In this document: positions 2,830 to 36,174 of the stretch, piece after piece
Layout of the letters: every line of letters starts with the position of its first letter
How positions within the stretch are numbered: position 1 is the stretch's first letter
The notes under the pieces: model-generated
The model's database searches: none
The model's input: the letters and a program-made list of their open reading frames with translations, nothing else
What the model was told of the DNA's origin: nothing
Assembly: GCF_036013935.1 (NCBI RefSeq)
Contig: NZ_CP107902.1
Span: 3,071,001-3,135,000 of the forward strand
Length of the DNA: 64,000 bases
Direction: 5' to 3'
From: Streptomyces sp. NBC_00461
GTDB taxonomy: Bacteria > Actinomycetota > Actinomycetes > Streptomycetales > Streptomycetaceae
Program-made: the position numbers and the translations under genes

Positions 2830-3453
2830 ATGGGTGTCGCGGGCGCGCGGAAGAAGGCGGCCCGGCTCGCCGCGGGGCTGCGGCGCTCGCGAAGGGCCTC
2901 CTCCGGGATGCGGAAGCTGACGAAAGGTCTCGGCGCGGCCGTGCGGGCCAGATCGCGCCCACCGGCCGACGCGCGCGAACTGTGCCGGGTGCTGTGCGAG
3001 GAGATGCGCGTCCGGCGTGGCGGGCGGCCCGTGGAGCTGCGGTTCGAGCGGTTCCCGGACGAGATCGAGGTCACCGGGCTGTGGGTGGAGTTCCAGGACT
3101 TCGACCTGGTGATCGTCGAGGAACGAGCCGAGGCGGTGCAGCAACTGGTCATCCTCGGCCATGAGTTGTGGCACCTGCACGCCGGGCACAGCCACCACCA
3201 CGTGGCCGGGGCGGCGCTGGCCGACCGGCACGAGTGGAACGCCTTCGACGACGCCGCGCTGTCCGTGGCCGCGCGTGACGGCTCCCGCGTCGCCGACGAG
3301 GCGGAGGCCGACGACTTCGGGCACCGGCTCGCCGCCGCGTTCCGGCCCCTGCTGTCCGGCGGGTCGGGGCGGTCCGGACAGGACACAGTCGCCCCGCTCG
3401 ACCCGTTGCGACGGTCCCTCGGCTACCGGGGGCGCGGGGGAACGGCGCGGTGA
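2830..3453 (+). CDS. ImmA/IrrE-like HExxH peptidase (orphan copy)
   Basis: 207 residues, very basic in the first 45. HELWH at residues 111-115 is an HExxH zinc-peptidase motif, and the downstream EADDFGHRLAAAF region is where a third metal ligand usually sits. In databases such proteins are commonly labelled 'toxin-antitoxin toxin component', but ImmA/IrrE relatives are regulatory proteases that cleave XRE-type repressors. Its stop overlaps the GTG of the membrane-protein gene (GTGA), so the two are translationally coupled. Unlike the paralogous operon at 31.8 kb, no XRE gene lies beside it. Substrate unknown. Confidence 0.7.
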   Translation: MGVAGARKKAARLAAGLRRSRRASSGMRKLTKGLGAAVRARSRPPADARELCRVLCEEMRVRRGGRPVELRFERFPDEIEVTGLWVEFQDFDLVIVEERAEAVQQLVILGHELWHLHAGHSHHHVAGAALADRHEWNAFDDAALSVAARDGSRVADEAEADDFGHRLAAAFRPLLSGGSGRSGQDTVAPLDPLRRSLGYRGRGGTAR

Positions 3454-4718
3454 CGACGGCCCTCGCCCGACTGGCGTGGTCCCCCGCGGGTTTCGTCAAC
3501 GAGTTCTACCCGTCGTTCTGGTGGATCCCGGCCTGCGTCCTGACCGCCGCCCTGGCGATCAAGCTGCCCAGCATCGTGCGGCTGTGGAGCGACCCGCTGC
3601 TGCGGGCCGTCGGCGGCGTACTGCTCATCGCCTGCGCCGTGTTCGTGTTCGTGGCGCCGTCGACGATCGCCCGGGTCAACCGGATCACGGGCGTGCCGAA
3701 CATCTCGGCACCCTGGGTGTACTCGCTGCTGACCGCGTTCTGCGGCTCCTGTCTGCTGCTGATCATCGCGTGGCGCAACGGGCTGTCCGACCGTTCGGCG
3801 GCGACGGTCCGCGCCGTGCGCTGGGTGATCGCGGGCACCTGCACGGTGATCGCCGCGCTGTGGGTGCTGTTCGCGCTGGCGGACGCGCCGGTGGAACGCC
3901 TGCGGGACCTCGACACGTACTACGCCGACACCCCGTACATGCGCGAGATGATCCTGCTCTATCTCCTCGCGCAGGCCGTGGCCACCGTGATCACCTCGGG
4001 CCTGATCTGGAACTGGGTCCGCACCGACGGACTCGACGCCTGGCTGCGCTGGGGCCTGAAGTTCCTGGGTGTCGGCTACGCGGCCCAACTCTCCTTCTAC
4101 GCGGTCAAACTGCCCGCGGTGGTGGCCCGCTGGACCGGCCGCCACCTGGACTGGCTGAGCACGGCGGTGGCCCCGCCCCTCGCCTGTCTGTCGGCCATCC
4201 TGATAGCGATCGGCTTCATCCTGCCGCACGCCGGCCAGTACCTCCACGAACGCTGGCGGGTCCATGCCGCCCACCACCGCCTGCGCCCCCTGTACCTCCT
4301 CATGCGCACGGTGAACGGCAGCGGTGTGTCGTTCGTCCTTCACGCCACGCCGGAGCTACGGCTCATCCGCCGGGAGACGTTCATCCGCGACGTCCTGCTC
4401 CCCCTGGCCCGCCACATCGACGAGGACCGACGCCACCGGGCCTACGAGGCCGCCCTCGCCCTCGGCCACGCCCCGCCCCACGCCAGGGCCCTCGCCTCCG
4501 CGGTAGCCCTCCAGGACGCGGTCGAGGCCCGCCACCGGCCGACGGAGACCGACCCGGACCACGCCCCCGACACCACAGACCTGCTCCGCGAGATCACCAC
4601 CGTGTCCCAAGCCCTACGCCACCCGGCCGACCTCCTGGCCGTACGCACCCACGCACCGGAACCGGGCGTGGCGGGGCGGGGCGCCGCTGGGGTTGATCGG
4701 CGGGGGGTTCGTGGCTGA
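3450..4718 (+). CDS. MAB_1171c-type polytopic membrane protein
   Basis: 422 residues with about seven hydrophobic segments in the first 270 and a soluble C-terminal half. Family blocks shared with the paralogue at 33.1 kb include NRITGVPNI.APW.YS.LTAFC and DLDTYYADTPYMRE. The family is usually named a putative transporter, but nothing in the sequence shows transport; a sensor or signalling role is equally possible. It starts with GTG at 3450 inside the stop codon of the HExxH peptidase gene, so the two products are probably made in fixed ratio. Confidence 0.65.
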   Translation: MTTALARLAWSPAGFVNEFYPSFWWIPACVLTAALAIKLPSIVRLWSDPLLRAVGGVLLIACAVFVFVAPSTIARVNRITGVPNISAPWVYSLLTAFCGSCLLLIIAWRNGLSDRSAATVRAVRWVIAGTCTVIAALWVLFALADAPVERLRDLDTYYADTPYMREMILLYLLAQAVATVITSGLIWNWVRTDGLDAWLRWGLKFLGVGYAAQLSFYAVKLPAVVARWTGRHLDWLSTAVAPPLACLSAILIAIGFILPHAGQYLHERWRVHAAHHRLRPLYLLMRTVNGSGVSFVLHATPELRLIRRETFIRDVLLPLARHIDEDRRHRAYEAALALGHAPPHARALASAVALQDAVEARHRPTETDPDHAPDTTDLLREITTVSQALRHPADLLAVRTHAPEPGVAGRGAAGVDRRGVRG

Positions 4719-29552: not shown

Positions 29553-30698
29553 CTAGGCCCCCGGCCCGTCGGCCCCCGATCCCTGGCCCCAGGCGGGCTT
29601 GAACCAGTCCGGGTCGGCCCAGCGTCCGCGAACGGCCAGGTCCGGGCGGTAGCCGGGGTTCCGTTCCCTGCGCAGCCGTACGCTCGCGTGGAGCACCGCC
29701 GACGGAGGTACCGGGCGCGAGCGCCGGCCCGCGAGGATCCACAGGGGGCCGTTGTGGTGGATGGTGGCGTCGGCGAAGGACTCGGAGACCGCGGTCTCCT
29801 CGGCGTAGGCGCCCGGGCGGAAGTCCAGGTCGTCGCGGACGCCGTCGGTGATCCACTTGAGGCTGATCGTGGAGAGCAGCGGCGCGCCCGGGACGTGGTC
29901 GAAGGTCCCGCCGACGTCGCAGTGCACACCGGCGAACCACACCTCCTCCGCGGTGCTCCGGTCCGTGTCGGGCTCGGGGGCGCGCGGCCTGACCAGGAAC
30001 TCGCGGTACGGCCGCCGTTTCTCGTCGAGGGACACGGCGTGCCGGATGCGGGCGGCGTTGGGCAGCGAGTGGGTGTAGGGCCAGCGCAGGTCGCCCAGCC
30101 GGAGCAGGCCGGCCGCCTTCACGGTGTCCCAGACGCCCAGGTAGGCGACCGGGAGGGCGTGGTGCGAGACCTGCCGGGGGTCGTTGCGCTTCACCTGCGC
30201 CCACAGCGGCTCGTGCTCGGTGCGCCGGCAGAAGGCGTGCGAGAAGCGCGCGACCTCCTGCTCGCTCTCGTCGATGTCCTGGTTGAAGGCGTATTTGGCC
30301 ACGGCGTACGGCACGAGGTTCTCCGCACCCAGGCGCATCAGCCCCGGCTTGTTGAGCATCCCGACCAGCGCGCGGGCCGTGTAGGCGCCGCGGCTGAACC
30401 CGAAGACGTACACCGCGTCCCCTGGCTGCCAGTGCTGCATGAGGAAGGTGTACGCCTCGGCGAGGTTGGCTTTGAGGCCCGTACCGAAGGCGAGGCCGCC
30501 CAGCCGGGAGAGCCGCCGCCCCAGGGGGCCGCGCGCGGTGGCCGCCGACATGGTGCCGACCCCGGGGTCGTAGTAGAGCAGCTGGCTCGACGGATCGTCC
30601 GGCTCCAGCATCTCGTACAGCCGGACCACGTTCGTCGGGTTGCGGGCGCCCACCTGGTTGCCGGTTCCGTCCAGGCAGACGACGATCCTGCGCGGCAT
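29553..30698 (-). CDS. DUF2235 alpha/beta hydrolase
   Basis: 381 residues. The start IVVCLDGTGNQ, the nucleophile elbow VFGFSRGAYTARALVGML (GxSxG as GFSRG) and the late GVHCDVGGTF are the DUF2235 signature; members include Tle1-type phospholipase effectors and stand-alone hydrolases. No signal peptide is seen. It lies 13 bp downstream of the gene at 30712-31584 and is surely co-transcribed. Streptomyces lack type VI secretion, so the role is open: lipid or ester hydrolysis, possibly paired with the unknown partner. Confidence 0.8.
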   Translation of the reverse strand: MPRRIVVCLDGTGNQVGARNPTNVVRLYEMLEPDDPSSQLLYYDPGVGTMSAATARGPLGRRLSRLGGLAFGTGLKANLAEAYTFLMQHWQPGDAVYVFGFSRGAYTARALVGMLNKPGLMRLGAENLVPYAVAKYAFNQDIDESEQEVARFSHAFCRRTEHEPLWAQVKRNDPRQVSHHALPVAYLGVWDTVKAAGLLRLGDLRWPYTHSLPNAARIRHAVSLDEKRRPYREFLVRPRAPEPDTDRSTAEEVWFAGVHCDVGGTFDHVPGAPLLSTISLKWITDGVRDDLDFRPGAYAEETAVSESFADATIHHNGPLWILAGRRSRPVPPSAVLHASVRLRRERNPGYRPDLAVRGRWADPDWFKPAWGQGSGADGPGA

Positions 30699-30711
30699 GA
30701 CCGCTGCCCGC

Positions 30712-31584
30712 CTAACCGGTCCGGCGGGTGGCGCCGTGCCCGCCGCGGGCCCGCGGCCGGCCGGACGCGGAGCGCGCCCCGGGCGCTATCTGCTGGTGGA
30801 ACGCCTCCAGCGCCATGGGGCTGTCCGGCGGCAGTACGGCCATCTGACGGCGCCGTTGCGCCTTGGCCAGAGCGTCTCCCGCCGGTGTGCCGTGCCGGGC
30901 GTGGATGATGCGCAGATGTCCGTCGCCGGAACCGCGGGCGGCCACCGGCGCGACACCGGCGTGGGTGCCGTCGGGCAGGGTCACCCACAGGTTGAAGTCG
31001 TCGTACCGGATGTAGTCCGCGCCTTTGACGGGCCACGGGTAGTGGTGCTCGCCGGCGGCCTTGGGCAGGATCCCCTGGTGGTTGCCGGTGGTGAGCGGCA
31101 CGCACGCGTTGAACAGCGAGTCGGTCCAGGCCGCGACGCCCTTGGCGTCGGTGATGGGGGTCTCCAGCAGCTTCCGGGCCCGCTTGTAGCCGAGGGCGTC
31201 CAGGGCGGGAAGGGTGTCCGGGAAGGCGGCGACGAGGTCGGCGGCCTCCTGCCGCAGCCGGTCGACCTTCGCGGGGTCGGCGCAGAACTGCATGCTCCAC
31301 TCGATGCCCACCCGGGCCCGGTACATCCGCCAGCCACCGCTCGTCTTCACCCAGAGGCTGCCGCCGTGGTGCATCTCGTACGGACCCGGTCCGTACGGCA
31401 GCTCGGTCCTGCCCATCTCCCGGAGGATCTTGTGCGTGACGTCCTTCGCGGCGCGGAACTGCGCGGACTCGGCGCGGTCCGGATGCCTGACGAGCTGTAT
31501 CTCCCAGGGGTGGTCCTCCCGTTCGGTCTTGCCGAAGGTGAGGGCCGGAGGTTTCGTCGCCGTAGCGGCTCGGTCGTTGGCCAT
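30712..31584 (-). CDS. Uncharacterised partner of the DUF2235 hydrolase
   Basis: 290 residues, soluble, with an Arg/Gly-rich C-terminal tail. Notable segments are YEMHHGGSLWVKTSGGWRMYRARVGIEWSMQF and HQGILPKAAGEHHYPWPVKG, with conserved-looking His pairs. I do not firmly recognise the family (it may be one of the recently numbered Streptomyces DUFs). The ATG at 31584 has an excellent GAGGAGG site; a longer ORF to 31686 lacks support. First gene of a two-gene operon with the DUF2235 hydrolase, divergent from the XRE operon, so the palindromes at 31698-31728 could control both. Confidence 0.6.
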   Translation of the reverse strand: MANDRAATATKPPALTFGKTEREDHPWEIQLVRHPDRAESAQFRAAKDVTHKILREMGRTELPYGPGPYEMHHGGSLWVKTSGGWRMYRARVGIEWSMQFCADPAKVDRLRQEAADLVAAFPDTLPALDALGYKRARKLLETPITDAKGVAAWTDSLFNACVPLTTGNHQGILPKAAGEHHYPWPVKGADYIRYDDFNLWVTLPDGTHAGVAPVAARGSGDGHLRIIHARHGTPAGDALAKAQRRRQMAVLPPDSPMALEAFHQQIAPGARSASGRPRARGGHGATRRTG

Positions 31585-31697
31585 GGCCGGCCTCCTCTGT
31601 CGACCGCGGCCCCGGACGCCCGGCGCGTCACGGGCCCCGCTGTTCTCATCGTCCTCCCACGGCCCGGTTCTCGCTCTGCGTAACACCTGCCCCTTTC

Positions 31698-31728
31698 AAC
31701 GATCGTTCTTGGCCGATAAACGATCGTT
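31698..31728. promoter_or_regulatory. Twin palindromic operator before the XRE-peptidase operon
   Basis: Two exact copies of the palindrome AACGATCGTT (31698-31707 and 31719-31728) are spaced 21 bp centre to centre, two helical turns, and lie inside a wider inverted repeat (CTGCCCCT on the left, AGGGGCGG on the right). This is the expected form of a cooperative XRE-repressor site. Confidence 0.65.
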
Positions 31729-31822
31729 GACAGGGGCGGGCGATGGGCGAGCGGCGGGAGTTCCCCTAGGCTGCGAGCCGCACCACGCCACAGCTGTCGA
31801 CCACCCGCTCAGGGAGCACACG

Positions 31823-32449
31823 GTGGAGCCACCCACGCACCTCCCCGAGACTCTTCGGCGTCTCGACGTCCTCGCCGAACAGCAGGGCCTGACCCGGTCG
31901 GATCTGCTCGACCCACGGGAACTGGCGGCCGGTACGGCCCTGCCGGAGAGCACTGTGCGCACCCTGCTGAGGGGCGGCGCCGCCCCCGCCGACAAGGTCA
32001 ACGACCGGGTCCGCGCCCGCCTGAAGACCCTCGCGGACGCCCATCTGGCGCGTACCGGCGGCCGTATGTCGGATCTGGCCGCCGATATCCGTGCCCGGCT
32101 GGGCGTCTCCGACTACTGGGCGCGCCAGGTGTGCGCCGGCCAGAAGGTGCCCAGCATCGAATTCCTGCACGGGCTGGTGGAGTTCTTCGGCGTCGAGGGA
32201 GGCGAGGCGTTCTTCACCGCACCGGCCGCCGACGCCCTCGACCGCGTACTGCGGCCCGTCGCAGGGAAGTTGGAGGGGCCGGCCGAACAGCCTGATCCCG
32301 TACGCGCTCTGATGGATCGTTACGGTGTGCGGGCCACGGACCTGCGGCGGCACGGCGCGATGACGCCGGAGCAGCTGGACCGGCTCCTGGAGGGTGTCAT
32401 CAGGTCGGCGGTCCCCCAGGCGGCCGGGGAAGGGGACGGTCCGCGATGA
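31823..32449 (+). CDS. XRE-family transcriptional regulator
   Basis: 208 residues. A first helical region has LAAGTALPESTVRTLLRG, and a second helix-turn-helix lies in RARLGVSDYWARQVCAGQKVPSIEFLHGLVEFFGV (about residues 88-125). The C-terminus is helical. Start GTG at 31823 with GGGAG. The stop overlaps the ATG of the HExxH peptidase gene (ATGA), the layout of ImmR/ImmA-type pairs in which the peptidase cleaves the repressor. The twin palindromes upstream are its likely operator, implying self-repression. Confidence 0.75.
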   Translation: MEPPTHLPETLRRLDVLAEQQGLTRSDLLDPRELAAGTALPESTVRTLLRGGAAPADKVNDRVRARLKTLADAHLARTGGRMSDLAADIRARLGVSDYWARQVCAGQKVPSIEFLHGLVEFFGVEGGEAFFTAPAADALDRVLRPVAGKLEGPAEQPDPVRALMDRYGVRATDLRRHGAMTPEQLDRLLEGVIRSAVPQAAGEGDGPR

Positions 32450-33051
32450 CCACCAAGGCGATGAAGTCGCTGCTCGCCGCCCTGGGCCGGGAGGCGTCGC
32501 GCTCGCTGCGGCGGCCGGCCGAACCCCGGGCCGTGATGGAGGAGTTCTGCCGGGCGATGAGCGTCCGCGTCGAGCGGCCGATCCAGTTGCTGTTCCGGGC
32601 GTTCCCGCCGGAGATCCCGGTGTCGGGCATGCGCCTGGACTGCGGCGACCGGTCCATCATCGTGGTGGAGGAGGGCACCGTCCCTGAGGCCCAACTGGTC
32701 ATCCTGGGCCATGAGTTGTGGCACGAGGAGCAGGGCTCCTGCGGCCACCACGCGGTGGGCGCCACGGTGGCCCGTGCCCTCACGGGCGACCGGACGCCCG
32801 AGGCGCTGCTGCGGGCCGCGCGGCAGGTCCTCGCCTCCGAGGAGGTCCCCCGCGAGGTGTGCCACACGGTGGCGGCCCGGTCCGCCTGCGACGACGACCA
32901 CGAGGTGGACGCGGAGACGTTCGGCCTGCTGTTCGCCCGCGAGGTGCGCACCTGGATGAAGGGCCGTTACGCCCGGGGTCCGGTCTCGCCGGCCACGGTC
33001 GAGGGCCGTATCAACCTGTCGCTCGGCAACCGCGGCGGACGCCTCCTGTGA
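32446..33051 (+). CDS. ImmA/IrrE-like HExxH peptidase
   Basis: 201 residues. HELWH at residues 89-93, followed by a second histidine cluster (GSCGHHAVGA) and HEVDAETFGLLFAREV, where a third metal ligand is likely. It is paralogous to the gene at 2830: both share the order QLVILGHELWH, a 'PxEIxVxGxxxxxxD' strand before it and a basic N-terminus. By analogy with ImmA and IrrE it may cut the XRE protein encoded just upstream. Overlaps both neighbours (ATGA at 32446, TGATG at 33049). Confidence 0.72.
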   Translation: MTTKAMKSLLAALGREASRSLRRPAEPRAVMEEFCRAMSVRVERPIQLLFRAFPPEIPVSGMRLDCGDRSIIVVEEGTVPEAQLVILGHELWHEEQGSCGHHAVGATVARALTGDRTPEALLRAARQVLASEEVPREVCHTVAARSACDDDHEVDAETFGLLFAREVRTWMKGRYARGPVSPATVEGRINLSLGNRGGRLL

Positions 33052-34241
33052 TGGACCCGCACTTCCACATCCCCTACGCGGTGCCCACCGCACTGCTGGC
33101 GGCGGCGCTCCTCGTCAAGCTGCCGACGTTCGTCCGTGCCTGGCGCGACCCCGACGTACGGGCCACCACGGTGCTGCTGACCTGCGCCACGGCCGTCCTC
33201 GTCGTCATCACACCCGTCAACATCGAGCGGCTCAACAAGCTGACGGGTGTGCCCAACATCGCCTCGCCCTGGGCCTATTCGTTCCTCACGGCGTTCTGCG
33301 CCACCGGCCTGACGATGATCATCCGCTGGCGTGAGGAGCCCTCCGAGCGCCGCCGCCGCAGGATGCGCCGTATCTACTGGATCTACGCCGGCGTGGTCGT
33401 CGCCCTCTGGGGGACGTTCCTGCTCGCGGACGCGCCCGAGCCGCGCATCTACGACCTGGACACCTACTACGCCGGCACCCCGTGGATGCGGGAGCACATC
33501 CTGCTCTACCTCACCGCGCACATGGTGTCGTCCCTGGTCGCCGCCTCCATGCTCTGGAAGTGGTTCCCTGAGGTCGAAGACCGCTGGCTGAAGTCGGGGG
33601 TCGTGCTGCTGCAGCTCGGCTTCGCGTCGGGCCTGCTCTTCGACGCGGCGAAGCTGACGGCGATCGGCGCCCGCTGGTCGGGCGCCGACTGGGACGCCCT
33701 CAGTACCCGCGCCGCCCCGCCGTTCGCGCTCATGGAGGCGGCCCTGGTGGCACTCGGGTTCCTGGTGCCGCAGGTGGGGCCGTTCCTGCAGAAGTGGGTC
33801 CGCGACCGGCGCGAGCACCGGCGGTTGCGGCCACTGTGGCGGGCGGTGCACGTCCTGGGGGCATCGGCCGCGCCGGCCCGCCTCGGCTTCTGGGCGCCGC
33901 TGGATCTGCGCCTGATGCAGCGCCGCCAGCGCATCCACGACGCCCTGCGCCTGCTCAACCCGCACTTCGACCACGGCCTCTACCAACAGGCCTACCAGGA
34001 CGCGCTGTTCGCCCACGACGAGGAGCGGGCACGAGGGATGGCCGGCGCCGTCGCGGTCCTCGCCGCGCTCGACGCCCGGCAGGCGGGAGCCCCGCCCGCG
34101 GCGGGCGCCGGGTCCGGGCCCACCGGCGCCCATGTCACCGGTGACATCGAGTCCGTCTCACGGGCGCTGCGTCGCCCGCACCCCGTCGACGCCCTTCGCC
34201 GACGGCTGACCAGCACAGAAAGCACGATCACACATGCCTGA
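33051..34241 (+). CDS. MAB_1171c-type polytopic membrane protein
   Basis: 396 residues, about seven hydrophobic segments followed by a soluble C-terminal domain of some 150 residues. It shares NKLTGVPNIASPWAYSFLTAFC and DLDTYYAGTPWMRE with the paralogue at 3450. The strictly kept GVPNI..PW.YS and DLDTYY blocks, at membrane edges, could be ligand-binding or coupling sites. Start overlaps the peptidase stop; the end overlaps the FAD gene by 8 bp. A membrane sensor that activates the peptidase would fit the context, but no experiment known to me shows it. Confidence 0.65.
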   Translation: MDPHFHIPYAVPTALLAAALLVKLPTFVRAWRDPDVRATTVLLTCATAVLVVITPVNIERLNKLTGVPNIASPWAYSFLTAFCATGLTMIIRWREEPSERRRRRMRRIYWIYAGVVVALWGTFLLADAPEPRIYDLDTYYAGTPWMREHILLYLTAHMVSSLVAASMLWKWFPEVEDRWLKSGVVLLQLGFASGLLFDAAKLTAIGARWSGADWDALSTRAAPPFALMEAALVALGFLVPQVGPFLQKWVRDRREHRRLRPLWRAVHVLGASAAPARLGFWAPLDLRLMQRRQRIHDALRLLNPHFDHGLYQQAYQDALFAHDEERARGMAGAVAVLAALDARQAGAPPAAGAGSGPTGAHVTGDIESVSRALRRPHPVDALRRRLTSTESTITHA

Positions 34242-35637
34242 AAGACTCGCCTCCCGCCGGCCGCGTGCCGTCGTCGTCGGCGGCAGCGTCGCCGGCCTGT
34301 TCGCCGCGGCCGCGCTCGCCGAGTTCGCCGACGTCACGATCGTCGAGCGGGACACGCTCCCCGAGGGGCCCGAGCCGCGGCGCGGCGTTCCCCAGGCCCG
34401 GCACGCGCACCTCGTGTGGAGCGGCGGAGTCAAGGCGTTCGACGAGCTGCTGCCCGGCGTCGTCGAGGAGCTCGTCGAGAAGGGCGCCCGACTGGTCCAC
34501 ATCATGGGCGACATGGTCTCCCGGGCCCCCAACGAGATCTGGTTCCGCCGTTTCACGGCCACCCACCACCGCAACCTGGTGTGCTCGCGCGATCTGCTCG
34601 ACGCGGTGATACGCGCCCGCGTCCTCGCCGACGACCGCGTGACGCTCCGTCAGAACACCACCGCGCTGGCCCTGGAGGGCGACGCCGCGCGCGTCACCGG
34701 TGTCCGGGTCCGCTCCGGCGACGGGGACCTCACCCTCTCCGCCGAGCTCGTCGTGGACGCCTCCGGCCGCGGCTCCCACGCCCCGGGCTGGCTCACGGAC
34801 CTCGGCCTGCCGCAGGTCACCGAGCGCGAGGTGAACGCCGGCGTCGTCTACGCCACCCGCCTCTACCGCGCCCCGGGCAGCACCGCCGACGCCGCCTTCC
34901 CGATCGTCAACGTGCAGGCCAACCCGGCGAACGCGCCCGGCCGCGGCGGCATCATCCTCCCCGTCGAGGAGGGCCGCTGGATCGTCACCCTCTCCGGCAC
35001 CCACGGCGGCGAACCCACCGCCGACGCCGACGCGTTCGCGGACTTCGCCCTGTCCCTCGGCGACCCCGTCATCGGCGGACTGATCAAGGACGCCGAGCCG
35101 CTCGGCGGGGTGACCACCACCCGCTCCACCGCCAACCGCCGCCGCTACTACGAGAAACTCCCGCACTGGCCGGAGGGCTTCACGGTCCTCGGCGACGCGG
35201 TCGCCGGCTACAACCCGGTCTACGGCCACGGCCTCACCGTCGCCGCCCAGTGCGCCCTCACCCTCCGCACCGTCCTGCGCTCCGCCTCCCTCACCGCGCC
35301 CGGCACCGCCCGCCGCCTCCAACGCGCCGCCGCCCGCCCGGTCGCCGCCGCCTGGGACCTGGCCGTGGGCCAGGACGCGTTCTACCCCGGCGCCACGGAC
35401 ACGCCTCCCACCGCCGTGGAACGCTTCCTCGCCCGCTTCGTCGACCGCGCGGTCGCCACCGGGGCCCGCCACCCGCGCGCACTCGGCGCCCTCCTCGACG
35501 TCATGAGCCTGGAGAAGCCCGCGATCCGCCTCTTCTCGCCCGACATGCTGATCCCGATGCTCTTCGGCCCGCGGAAGCCGCACCTCCAGGACCCGCCCCT
35601 GACGGACGCGGAACGCGCCACGGCCGCCTCCTCCTGA
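34234..35637 (+). CDS. FAD-dependent oxidoreductase / monooxygenase
   Basis: 467 residues. The N-terminal dinucleotide loop is AVVVGGSVAGLFAAAALAE with VERDTLP after it, the middle has LVVDASGRGSHAPGWL (DG-like motif), and the GD motif is FTVLGDAVAGYNPVYGHGLTVAA. This is the group A flavoprotein monooxygenase pattern, close to geranylgeranyl-reductase-like and epoxidase-like members. It is the fourth gene of the XRE operon, overlapping the membrane protein, so it is probably the regulated output: oxidation of an unknown lipid or aromatic compound. Confidence 0.78.
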   Translation: MPERLASRRPRAVVVGGSVAGLFAAAALAEFADVTIVERDTLPEGPEPRRGVPQARHAHLVWSGGVKAFDELLPGVVEELVEKGARLVHIMGDMVSRAPNEIWFRRFTATHHRNLVCSRDLLDAVIRARVLADDRVTLRQNTTALALEGDAARVTGVRVRSGDGDLTLSAELVVDASGRGSHAPGWLTDLGLPQVTEREVNAGVVYATRLYRAPGSTADAAFPIVNVQANPANAPGRGGIILPVEEGRWIVTLSGTHGGEPTADADAFADFALSLGDPVIGGLIKDAEPLGGVTTTRSTANRRRYYEKLPHWPEGFTVLGDAVAGYNPVYGHGLTVAAQCALTLRTVLRSASLTAPGTARRLQRAAARPVAAAWDLAVGQDAFYPGATDTPPTAVERFLARFVDRAVATGARHPRALGALLDVMSLEKPAIRLFSPDMLIPMLFGPRKPHLQDPPLTDAERATAASS

Positions 35638-36174
35638 CGTTCACGCACGGGCGGGCGCCCCTGAGGACAAGGAGCCCGCTCGGGTCACAAGGTTGGGGTG
35701 ACGAGGCGCCCCGATGTCGAACCGGTTGGCGTGAAGGGAACGTAGGAGTTGGCCGTGGGGTGTCAATACCTCTCGCACCCCTTCCGAAACATCGCGGAAA
35801 CCTGGACGCGCGCAATCGTGGCACCCGGCCAACGGATGCCGGAGGTATTGACGCGTCCCGCTTCCCCCCTCTAGCGTCTGCCCGACTTTACGAACGCCGT
35901 TCGATTTTTCGGACAACTCGCCCCGCTGGACAGGGAATCGGCTGCGCAGGCTTCCCCCGGCCAAGGACCTCGACGACACACCGCACCGATCACCTCCGCA
36001 CCATGACCGCCCCACCCGGACGACGACCGTGACGTGCCCTTCCACGTCTCGCCGCAGCCGCGTTCGTCCCGCCACAACAAGACCGAGCCGCCCTCTTCCC
36101 CACCCTCACCCCCCCAACTCCACCGCGCCCCTCGTCCCCCGATGGTGGCTTGCGAAGGACGACAGGAGACGTAC
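35638..36174. promoter_or_regulatory. 537-bp gap with two divergent promoters in inverted repeat
   Basis: No gene is seen here. Plus strand: TTGACG (35848-35853), 18-bp spacer, TAGCGT (35872-35877), driving the GH43 gene. Minus strand: TTGACA (complement of 35761-35766), 16-bp spacer, TACGTT (complement of 35739-35744). Both -35 regions lie in a perfect inverted repeat, GTCAATACCT (35762-35771) and AGGTATTGAC (35843-35852). The minus promoter would run antisense to the FAD oxidoreductase gene. Confidence 0.55.

Follow-up and report, generated by a model that had tools for sequence, protein, structure and literature searches.

We describe a four-gene operon in a 64,000-nucleotide stretch of Streptomyces sp. 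NBC_00461 (contig NZ_CP107902.1, positions 3,071,001 to 3,135,000), hereafter the window. Four open reading frames (ORFs) on the + strand encode an XRE-type repressor (XRE), a HExxH zinc peptidase (PEP), a membrane protein of the MAB_1171c family (MAB in gene orders and counts) and an FAD-dependent monooxygenase (FAD in gene orders; Table 1). A first-pass annotation made from the sequence had described four stop-start-coupled genes here, and the ORFs bear this out, since their ends overlap at every junction. The XRE stop codon (32447-32449) and the PEP ATG (32446) overlap by 4 nt, the PEP stop (33049-33051) and the MAB_1171c start by 4 or 1 nt (GTG at 33048 or ATG at 33051), and the MAB_1171c stop (34239-34241) and the FAD ATG (34234) by 8 nt. 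The earlier span of 31686..35637 is right at its end and needs correction at its start; XRE most likely begins at the GTG at 31823, and position 31686 falls in the promoter/operator region. The four-gene arrangement is not due to chance, because the identical gene order recurs across many genomes and genomic contexts.

Table 1. Features of the operon, its flanks and the second copy in the window (positions are those of the window).
Feature	Position	Strand	Basis or remark
Twin operator-like site, two AACGATCGTT palindromes (31698-31707, 31719-31728), 21 bp apart	31698..31728		Predicted
XRE-type repressor, 208 aa	31823..32449	+	Homologue of the L216 XRE; XRE directly upstream of PEP in 78/141
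Soluble HExxH zinc peptidase (PEP), ImmA/IrrE-like, 201 aa	32446..33051	+	H89, E90, H93; probable third ligand E153
MAB_1171c family membrane protein	33048..34241	+	Seven predicted segments and cytosolic DUF6545 tail; NF042915, DUF6545, hydropathy
FAD-dependent monooxygenase, MonCI/Lsd18 epoxidase-like, 467 aa	34234..35637	+	PDB 8up4 match; FAD_binding_3
Weak terminator-like stem 3' of the operon	35891..35903	+	1 found vs 0.6 expected in shuffles; not convincing
Second HExxH peptidase, PEP family	2908..3453 (ORF open from 2830)	+	No XRE beside it
Second MAB_1171c gene	3450..4718	+	No enzyme follows

We surveyed 153 loci, namely the window, a further locus of the same genome (L007), 11 named loci and 140 regions from the best-scoring places listed, each fetched with about 5 kb on either side. 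The 140 regions do not include unlisted matches, eleven weak places from a phylum scan, or five of the listed places that lay at the end of a contig or on a short one. Genes were called with a codon-usage caller, in which start sites and short genes may err, and trees were built with FastTree without a support filter. The survey yielded 164 MAB genes in 143 of the 153 loci, and the ten loci without a called MAB gene drop from the MAB counts. L069 and L158 are identical in sequence and are the sole pair with an identical MAB protein, so each count may hold one duplicate.

In 128 of the 164 cases the gene directly upstream of MAB on the same strand encodes a HExxH protein, and in 14 it is a further MAB gene. 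Of the remainder, 11 have a gene of some other kind there and 11 have no same-strand gene within 150 bp. The PEP-MAB junction overlaps in 87/130. A reverse survey from PEP covered 38 of the 61 sampled genomes of the genus, chosen by hand (26 of the 48 with MAB and 12 of the 13 without). MAB lay within 4 kb of 64 of its 72 PEP places, 62 as listed and two (L222 and L223) on inspection; the remaining eight were six XRE-PEP pairs, one place without a called PEP gene (L224) and one ordinary M78 protein (L225). A PEP hit was found in 25 of the 26 sampled genomes with MAB, and 11 of the 12 without MAB had none, the twelfth having the M78 protein of L225. The MAB_1171c gene itself is present in 48 of the 61 sampled genomes of the genus, that of the window included, with up to 11 in one genome. 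Across the phylum, at least 9 of 296 genomes scored above the NF042915 cut-off with at most six candidates scored per genome, eight of them in the window's genus, and matches occur in 19 Streptomyces plasmid records.

Common inheritance without any joint function would also keep such genes side by side. Many of the loci are orthologous, and by a strict rule only 16 of the 99 enzyme-labelled MAB genes lie in wholly unlinked contexts. We nevertheless give this explanation very little credence, given that the association holds over 66 context components for the 164 MAB genes, with FAD linkage seen in 22 contexts, and that the near absence of PEP from sampled genomes without MAB (11/12) also speaks against it. 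The association further persists where the gene order is changed, as it sometimes is (XRE-PEP-FAD-MAB), and on a plasmid (NZ_CP108729.1, L226), where the genes of the four-gene unit carry the annotations hypothetical protein, toxin, MAB_1171c transporter and FAD monooxygenase.

On sequence grounds PEP is best called a divergent M78-like (ImmA/IrrE) protease that lies under the Pfam cut-off. The HELWH motif occupies residues 89-93, and the putative catalytic residues are intact across the 141 PEP genes: H89 and E90 are kept in 141/141, H93 and E153 in 140/141 and R145 in 138/140, with HExxH kept in 140/141. We take this to be the residue pattern of ImmA/IrrE (M78), in which E153 would presumably be a zinc ligand. 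M78 was the commonest weak Pfam match (27 of 44 PEP representatives, best E 1.7e-5), and hhalign aligned the HExxH region with that of a clear M78 protein (probability 73, E 3e-5). Together with the retained HExxH and E153, these matches agree with the ImmA/IrrE-like peptidase named in the first-pass annotation, and the window PEP does not reach the PF06114 gathering score. PDB homology was set aside as evidence, as IrrE entries (E 0.093 and 0.85) appeared alongside an HTH protein (0.12) and behind an unrelated RNA polymerase omega subunit (0.02). No hydrophobic segment was found in 140 of the 141 PEP proteins, that of the window included.

Homologues of PEP bear the database names 'toxin', 'toxin-antitoxin system, toxin component', 'IrrE N-terminal-like' and 'ImmA/IrrE family metallo-endopeptidase'. 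The first two would suit a toxin-antitoxin pair, and COG2856-Xre pairs have been listed as candidate toxin-antitoxin systems (Makarova 2009; PMC2701414). Such a pair is nonetheless highly improbable in our view. The analogous ImmA of TnSmu1 affected the growth of E. coli only slightly, and a toxin-antitoxin module found no support in the data of that study (PMC10233336). Moreover, PEP stays while XRE is lost in L066, and a toxin-antitoxin pair would leave the linked enzyme and membrane protein without a role.

The third protein of the operon is a member of NF042915 by cut-off (125.3 bits, cut-off 100) and matches DUF6545 (PF20182; 49.9 bits, cut-off 24.4). A simple hydropathy scan gave seven segments, charges that fit an N-out/C-in orientation and a sizeable basic cytosolic tail; the seven-helix topology is likely, not settled. 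The NCBI family name for NF042915 is 'putative transporter', and knock-out of MAB_1171c in M. abscessus left about 50% less biofilm mass, which the authors read as a transport defect (PMC8707978). On this basis MAB_1171c could carry the enzyme's substrate or product across the membrane, with PEP and XRE responding to a cue from inside the cell, for instance DNA damage, in the manner of ImmA/ImmR, IrrE/DdrO or CapP/CapH; the known protease-repressor pairs respond to DNA damage or single-stranded DNA (ssDNA; PMC10904395). This seems to us unlikely, as a receptor would account at least as well for the seven segments and the basic cytosolic tail, and a PDB search matched the protein to no solved transporter structure. 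Both weak matches of that search, one to a calcium-channel gamma subunit (E 8.5e-4), the other to a formate dehydrogenase cytochrome subunit (0.98), were read as membrane-helix resemblance. A phage collection held no MAB_1171c match at E 1e-5. In the literature covered, which does not extend to subscription papers, we found no mechanism for the MAB_1171c/DUF6545 family and one paper with knock-out phenotypes.

Fourteen MAB_1171c genes directly follow another MAB_1171c gene (L144, L148, L169, L170, L204 and others), and some units may use a two-chain membrane partner. A 320-aa metagenome protein (P0169) joins the peptidase domain directly to DUF6545, the membrane part being absent. We did not accept it as proof of contact between PEP and MAB_1171c, since it is the only such case and possibly an in-frame deletion; there was no PEP-MAB fusion among 1753 called proteins.

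The fourth gene of the window encodes an enzyme that aligns over residues 10-462 with PDB 8up4 (346 bits, E 2.7e-102) and carries FAD_binding_3 (34.4 bits, cut-off 22). The first-pass annotation took this enzyme for the output of the pathway. It is indeed linked to the MAB and PEP lineage, but it is one of several alternatives in its slot: in the 104 cases with a gene within 150 bp after MAB, this gene encodes an FAD monooxygenase in 43, MAB in 14, an amidase in 8, P450 in 7, SDR in 7 and an amidohydrolase in 6, the rest being smaller families (Pfam names were taken from one representative each). When six enzyme classes were placed on the MAB tree (99 of the 164 genes), they required five changes, the minimum, against a shuffled mean of 36.5; the PEP tree required six, and FAD versus the rest required one change on each of the MAB, PEP and XRE trees. 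The gap limit for enzyme labels was 300 bp in the six-class tree counts, and 150 bp in both the 104-case count and the seven-class count on the MAB tree given below. By these sequence comparisons, each MAB_1171c lineage appears to keep its own enzyme class, with enzyme and putative receptor inherited together.

The slot is also occupied by proteins of other kinds. In L091 it holds an NsdA-family TPR-like regulatory protein (NF053720), not an enzyme, and L088 falls in the same cluster. A protein of 196-198 aa follows MAB_1171c in five units (cluster c26; L145, L094, L124), and the one member scanned (L145) had no Pfam or NCBIfam match.

The window XRE alone lies below Pfam cut-offs (HTH_26 at 16.7 vs 22). 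Its homology to the XRE of L216 (29% identity, hhalign probability 98.7), which carries HTH_3 at 40.3 bits, extends over most of the protein. This homologue and an operator-like site support the XRE-type repressor proposed in the first-pass annotation; as neither XRE nor PEP has a Pfam match above cut-off by itself, the names given there depend on such relatives. An XRE was called directly upstream of 78 of the 141 PEP genes, and hidden Markov model (HMM) searches found six more within 1.5 kb on the same strand, one truncated (L065) and one weak (L178). With 84/141 at or within 1.5 kb upstream, a peptidase family found mostly without XRE partners, the outcome that the first-pass annotation had named as contrary to its proposal, is not what we observed. 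A further 17 PEP genes have an XRE elsewhere in the surveyed stretch, a class that includes the second copy in the window, with its nearest XRE 29 kb away.

A putative operator at its own promoter, a trait of XRE repressors, is present as a site: the twin palindrome lies at the -35 region in 14 of the 15 loci of the closest XREs (window and one duplicate contig included; distal half with up to 3 mismatches). In the window the proximal AACGATCGTT palindrome runs into a TTGACA -35-like box at 31727-31732. The TTG of the -35-like box lies within the proximal half-site in 12 of the 14 twin-site loci, and TANNNT follows 17-19 bp past the box in 12/14. A scan of the 10.4 Mb genome that tolerated up to 3 mismatches matched the twin site here and nowhere else, and it gave no further site that would extend a regulon beyond the operon. 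Two orthologues, L066 without XRE and L065 with a truncated XRE, keep one intact half-site, the distal one as judged by its flank. In a second XRE group, GCCAC-N4-GTGGC is common to 11 of 17 distinct upstreams, where mononucleotide shuffles reach at most 3. Taken together, these sequence features are good evidence that XRE represses its own expression and that its control may be limited to the operon, the twin site being the probable point of binding.

We propose that the operon is a self-contained induction unit, a reading that in our judgement has about equal chances of being right and wrong. XRE would bind the twin palindrome at the -35 region and silence its own four-gene operon, and PEP, when activated, would cut XRE and so relieve the repression. 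MAB_1171c (seven-helix, N-out, with its cytosolic DUF6545 tail) would hold or activate PEP in response to a small molecule that is probably lipophilic. Induction would mainly yield the product of the last gene, an enzyme modifying the sensed molecule or one made with it. Of these steps we infer the binding of XRE to the site, its cleavage by PEP, the contact between PEP and MAB_1171c, the control by an outside signal, and what the ligand is and how it relates to the enzyme. MAB_1171c may thereby supply the sensing that the GAF-like domain of IrrE or the outer domain of BlaR1 supplies elsewhere.

Several observations weigh against this induction unit. The strongest objection is that more than a quarter of the units lack an XRE and have an intact peptidase, leaving either an XRE in trans or another substrate for PEP. 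No XRE was found in the fetched stretch for 40 of the 141 PEP genes, and 39 of these 40 keep HExxH; therefore, barring an XRE that works in trans, the XRE in cis is not the sole substrate of PEP. XRE is the least constant member of the unit, with about 24 switches between presence and absence on the MAB tree (n=144; shuffled mean 47.9). The four products that the first-pass annotation tied together are thus tied unequally, with a link between peptidase, membrane protein and enzyme that is strong across the family and an XRE that is labile.

The same lability would suit a working unit of PEP, MAB_1171c and enzyme at the membrane, in which PEP acts on MAB_1171c, the enzyme or another substrate and XRE only adds local control. 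L065, with its truncated XRE, and L066, with none, both keep PEP-MAB-FAD with HELWH, and the enzyme class tracks the MAB and PEP lineages. This arrangement seems to us unlikely: XRE-PEP pairs persist without MAB and enzyme in six genomes, and XRE-type repressors are what the characterized relatives of PEP cut (PMC10904395, PMC10233336).

Further points against the induction unit concern its other members. The six XRE-PEP pairs without MAB imply that PEP can work without MAB. At the promoter, 34 bp instead of 17 separate the -10-like TAGGCT of the window from the -35-like box, a promoter scan found no promoter, and L190 has an XRE without the twin site. Three of the five XRE groups gave no clear common dyad, and common upstream dyads can also stem from common descent, which shuffles do not model. 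As for the enzymes, the XRE tree needs six changes for four classes (minimum 3; shuffled 16.9), and the count on the MAB tree rises to 11 (shuffled 43.8) once the 'other' families are included as a seventh class. The six-class counts drop 40 MAB genes without a following gene, 20 followed by other families and 5 of odd length. With one locus per wholly unlinked context the margin is thin, at 5 changes vs 7.7 on the MAB tree (n=16) and 5 vs 6.8 on the PEP tree, where shuffles reach 5 (n=15). The hydropathy scan gave 4 to 10 segments in 159 MAB_1171c relatives of 350-460 aa (most often seven, in 61 proteins, then six in 48 and eight in 32). For the window PEP no M78 match was listed up to E 10, with filters that drop most matches above 0.1.

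Other copies illustrate how the unit varies. Beside clusters 32, 44 and 45, which by eye we take to be phosphopantetheinyl-transferase-like and phosphoesterase-like, a graded locus occurs as XRE-PEP-MAB-FAD (L152), XRE-PEP-MAB (L146, L163, L205 and L207) and XRE-PEP (L216-L221). An upstream block is common to all eleven members, and each of the six XRE-PEP pairs, one of which lies in the window's own genome (L219, 5815-7031), retains HELWH. PEP-MAB without XRE also exists, and the second copy in the window is of this kind; its neighbours (around 2908-4718) are presumably arabinofuranosidase-, SMP-30- and IclR-like genes, and in L162 and L168 an FAD gene follows MAB_1171c beside matching neighbours. 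A third unit in the same genome (L007, 5384-9035) comprises XRE, peptidase, MAB_1171c and amidase, the last three overlapping end to end. Nearby genes that we take to be WhiB-like and transposase-like suggest that it lies on a mobile element. A second plasmid, NZ_CP108443.1 (L227), appears identical to the plasmid of survey locus L155, to judge by its equal length. Divergent from the window operon, at 29553-31584, lie genes for a type VI secretion system (T6SS) Tle1-like protein with a phospholipase-type catalytic domain and for a DUF6424 protein, and similar genes also flank the unit in L065, as judged by eye.

The unit looks like a member of a large Streptomyces family that recurs in variants. 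We found no description of it in the literature covered on combinations of XRE, ImmA, HExxH, Streptomyces and membrane receptor, a body of text consisting mostly of titles and abstract openings. If the proposed induction unit is correct, it would account for many genes that currently carry the names 'toxin' and 'putative transporter', extend the ImmA/IrrE protease-repressor switches by a branch gated at the membrane, and point to enzymes (epoxidase, P450, amidase, SDR) with possible signal or antibiotic substrates. A wider generalization, which we regard as doubtful, is that MAB_1171c proteins are seven-helix receptors for small lipophilic signals, common in Streptomyces, each lineage paired with a ligand-making or ligand-destroying enzyme and releasing a soluble ImmA/IrrE-like protease onto a repressor.

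Several known systems resemble parts of the unit. The window enzyme is homologous in sequence to the solved MonCI and Lsd18 enzymes, by the 346-bit match given above, and largely keeps the RKG-PQ-RH-H-LWS-GA motif (here RRGVPQARHAHLVWSGGV) described for the MonCI/Lsd18 (LasC) flavin epoxidases of polyether pathways (PMC10560226). Unlike in MonCI/Lsd18, the second motif is only partly kept (NPVYGHGL), and no polyketide synthase, as in the polyether settings of those enzymes, was found among the immediate neighbouring genes scanned. As in ImmA-ImmR (ICEBs1, TnSmu1) and other COG2856-Xre pairs, an XRE repressor gene adjoins a HExxH protease gene, and derepression by repressor cleavage is a known mechanism in ICEBs1 (PMC10233336). 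In contrast to ImmA-ImmR, to which it is only distantly similar in sequence, the unit adds a membrane protein and a metabolic enzyme and seems to control its own operon, not an integrative and conjugative element (ICE).

An M78-type protease with an XRE-type repressor is likewise found in IrrE/PprI-DdrO of Deinococcus and in CapP-CapH of CBASS. In both, the protease cuts the repressor, and activation is by ssDNA or DNA damage (PMC10904395). IrrE bears its GAF-like domain on the protease chain, whereas the presumed sensor here is a separate membrane protein. We rejected a reading as a defence system, since PADLOC gave no match for the four window proteins and the phage collection was without MAB_1171c; of two relatives scanned with PADLOC, L103 had a weak capH match to its XRE (E 9.5e-5).

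The logic also resembles that of BlaR1-BlaI-BlaZ and MecR1-MecI, in which an outside compound acts through a membrane sensor-protease and a repressor on the production of an enzyme (PMC7593790, PMC6925264). The proposed unit would share this sequence of outside compound, membrane sensor, zinc protease, repressor and enzyme acting on the compound. BlaR1, of protease family M56, combines a beta-lactamase-like sensor and the protease domain in a single membrane-bound chain, whereas the protease here is soluble, of another family and encoded by a separate gene, the window PEP being without a hydrophobic segment. The enzyme here also varies by lineage, unlike in the BlaR1 system. If the reading is true, the unit would be a way to switch on a small-molecule-modifying enzyme with sensor and protease split. 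The first-pass annotation knew of no described pathway of this form; we found none in print with these components, although the logic is familiar from BlaR1/BlaI/BlaZ. The logic of the unit thus has precedent in ImmA/ImmR, IrrE/DdrO, CapP/CapH and BlaR1/BlaI/BlaZ, and its parts list is new.

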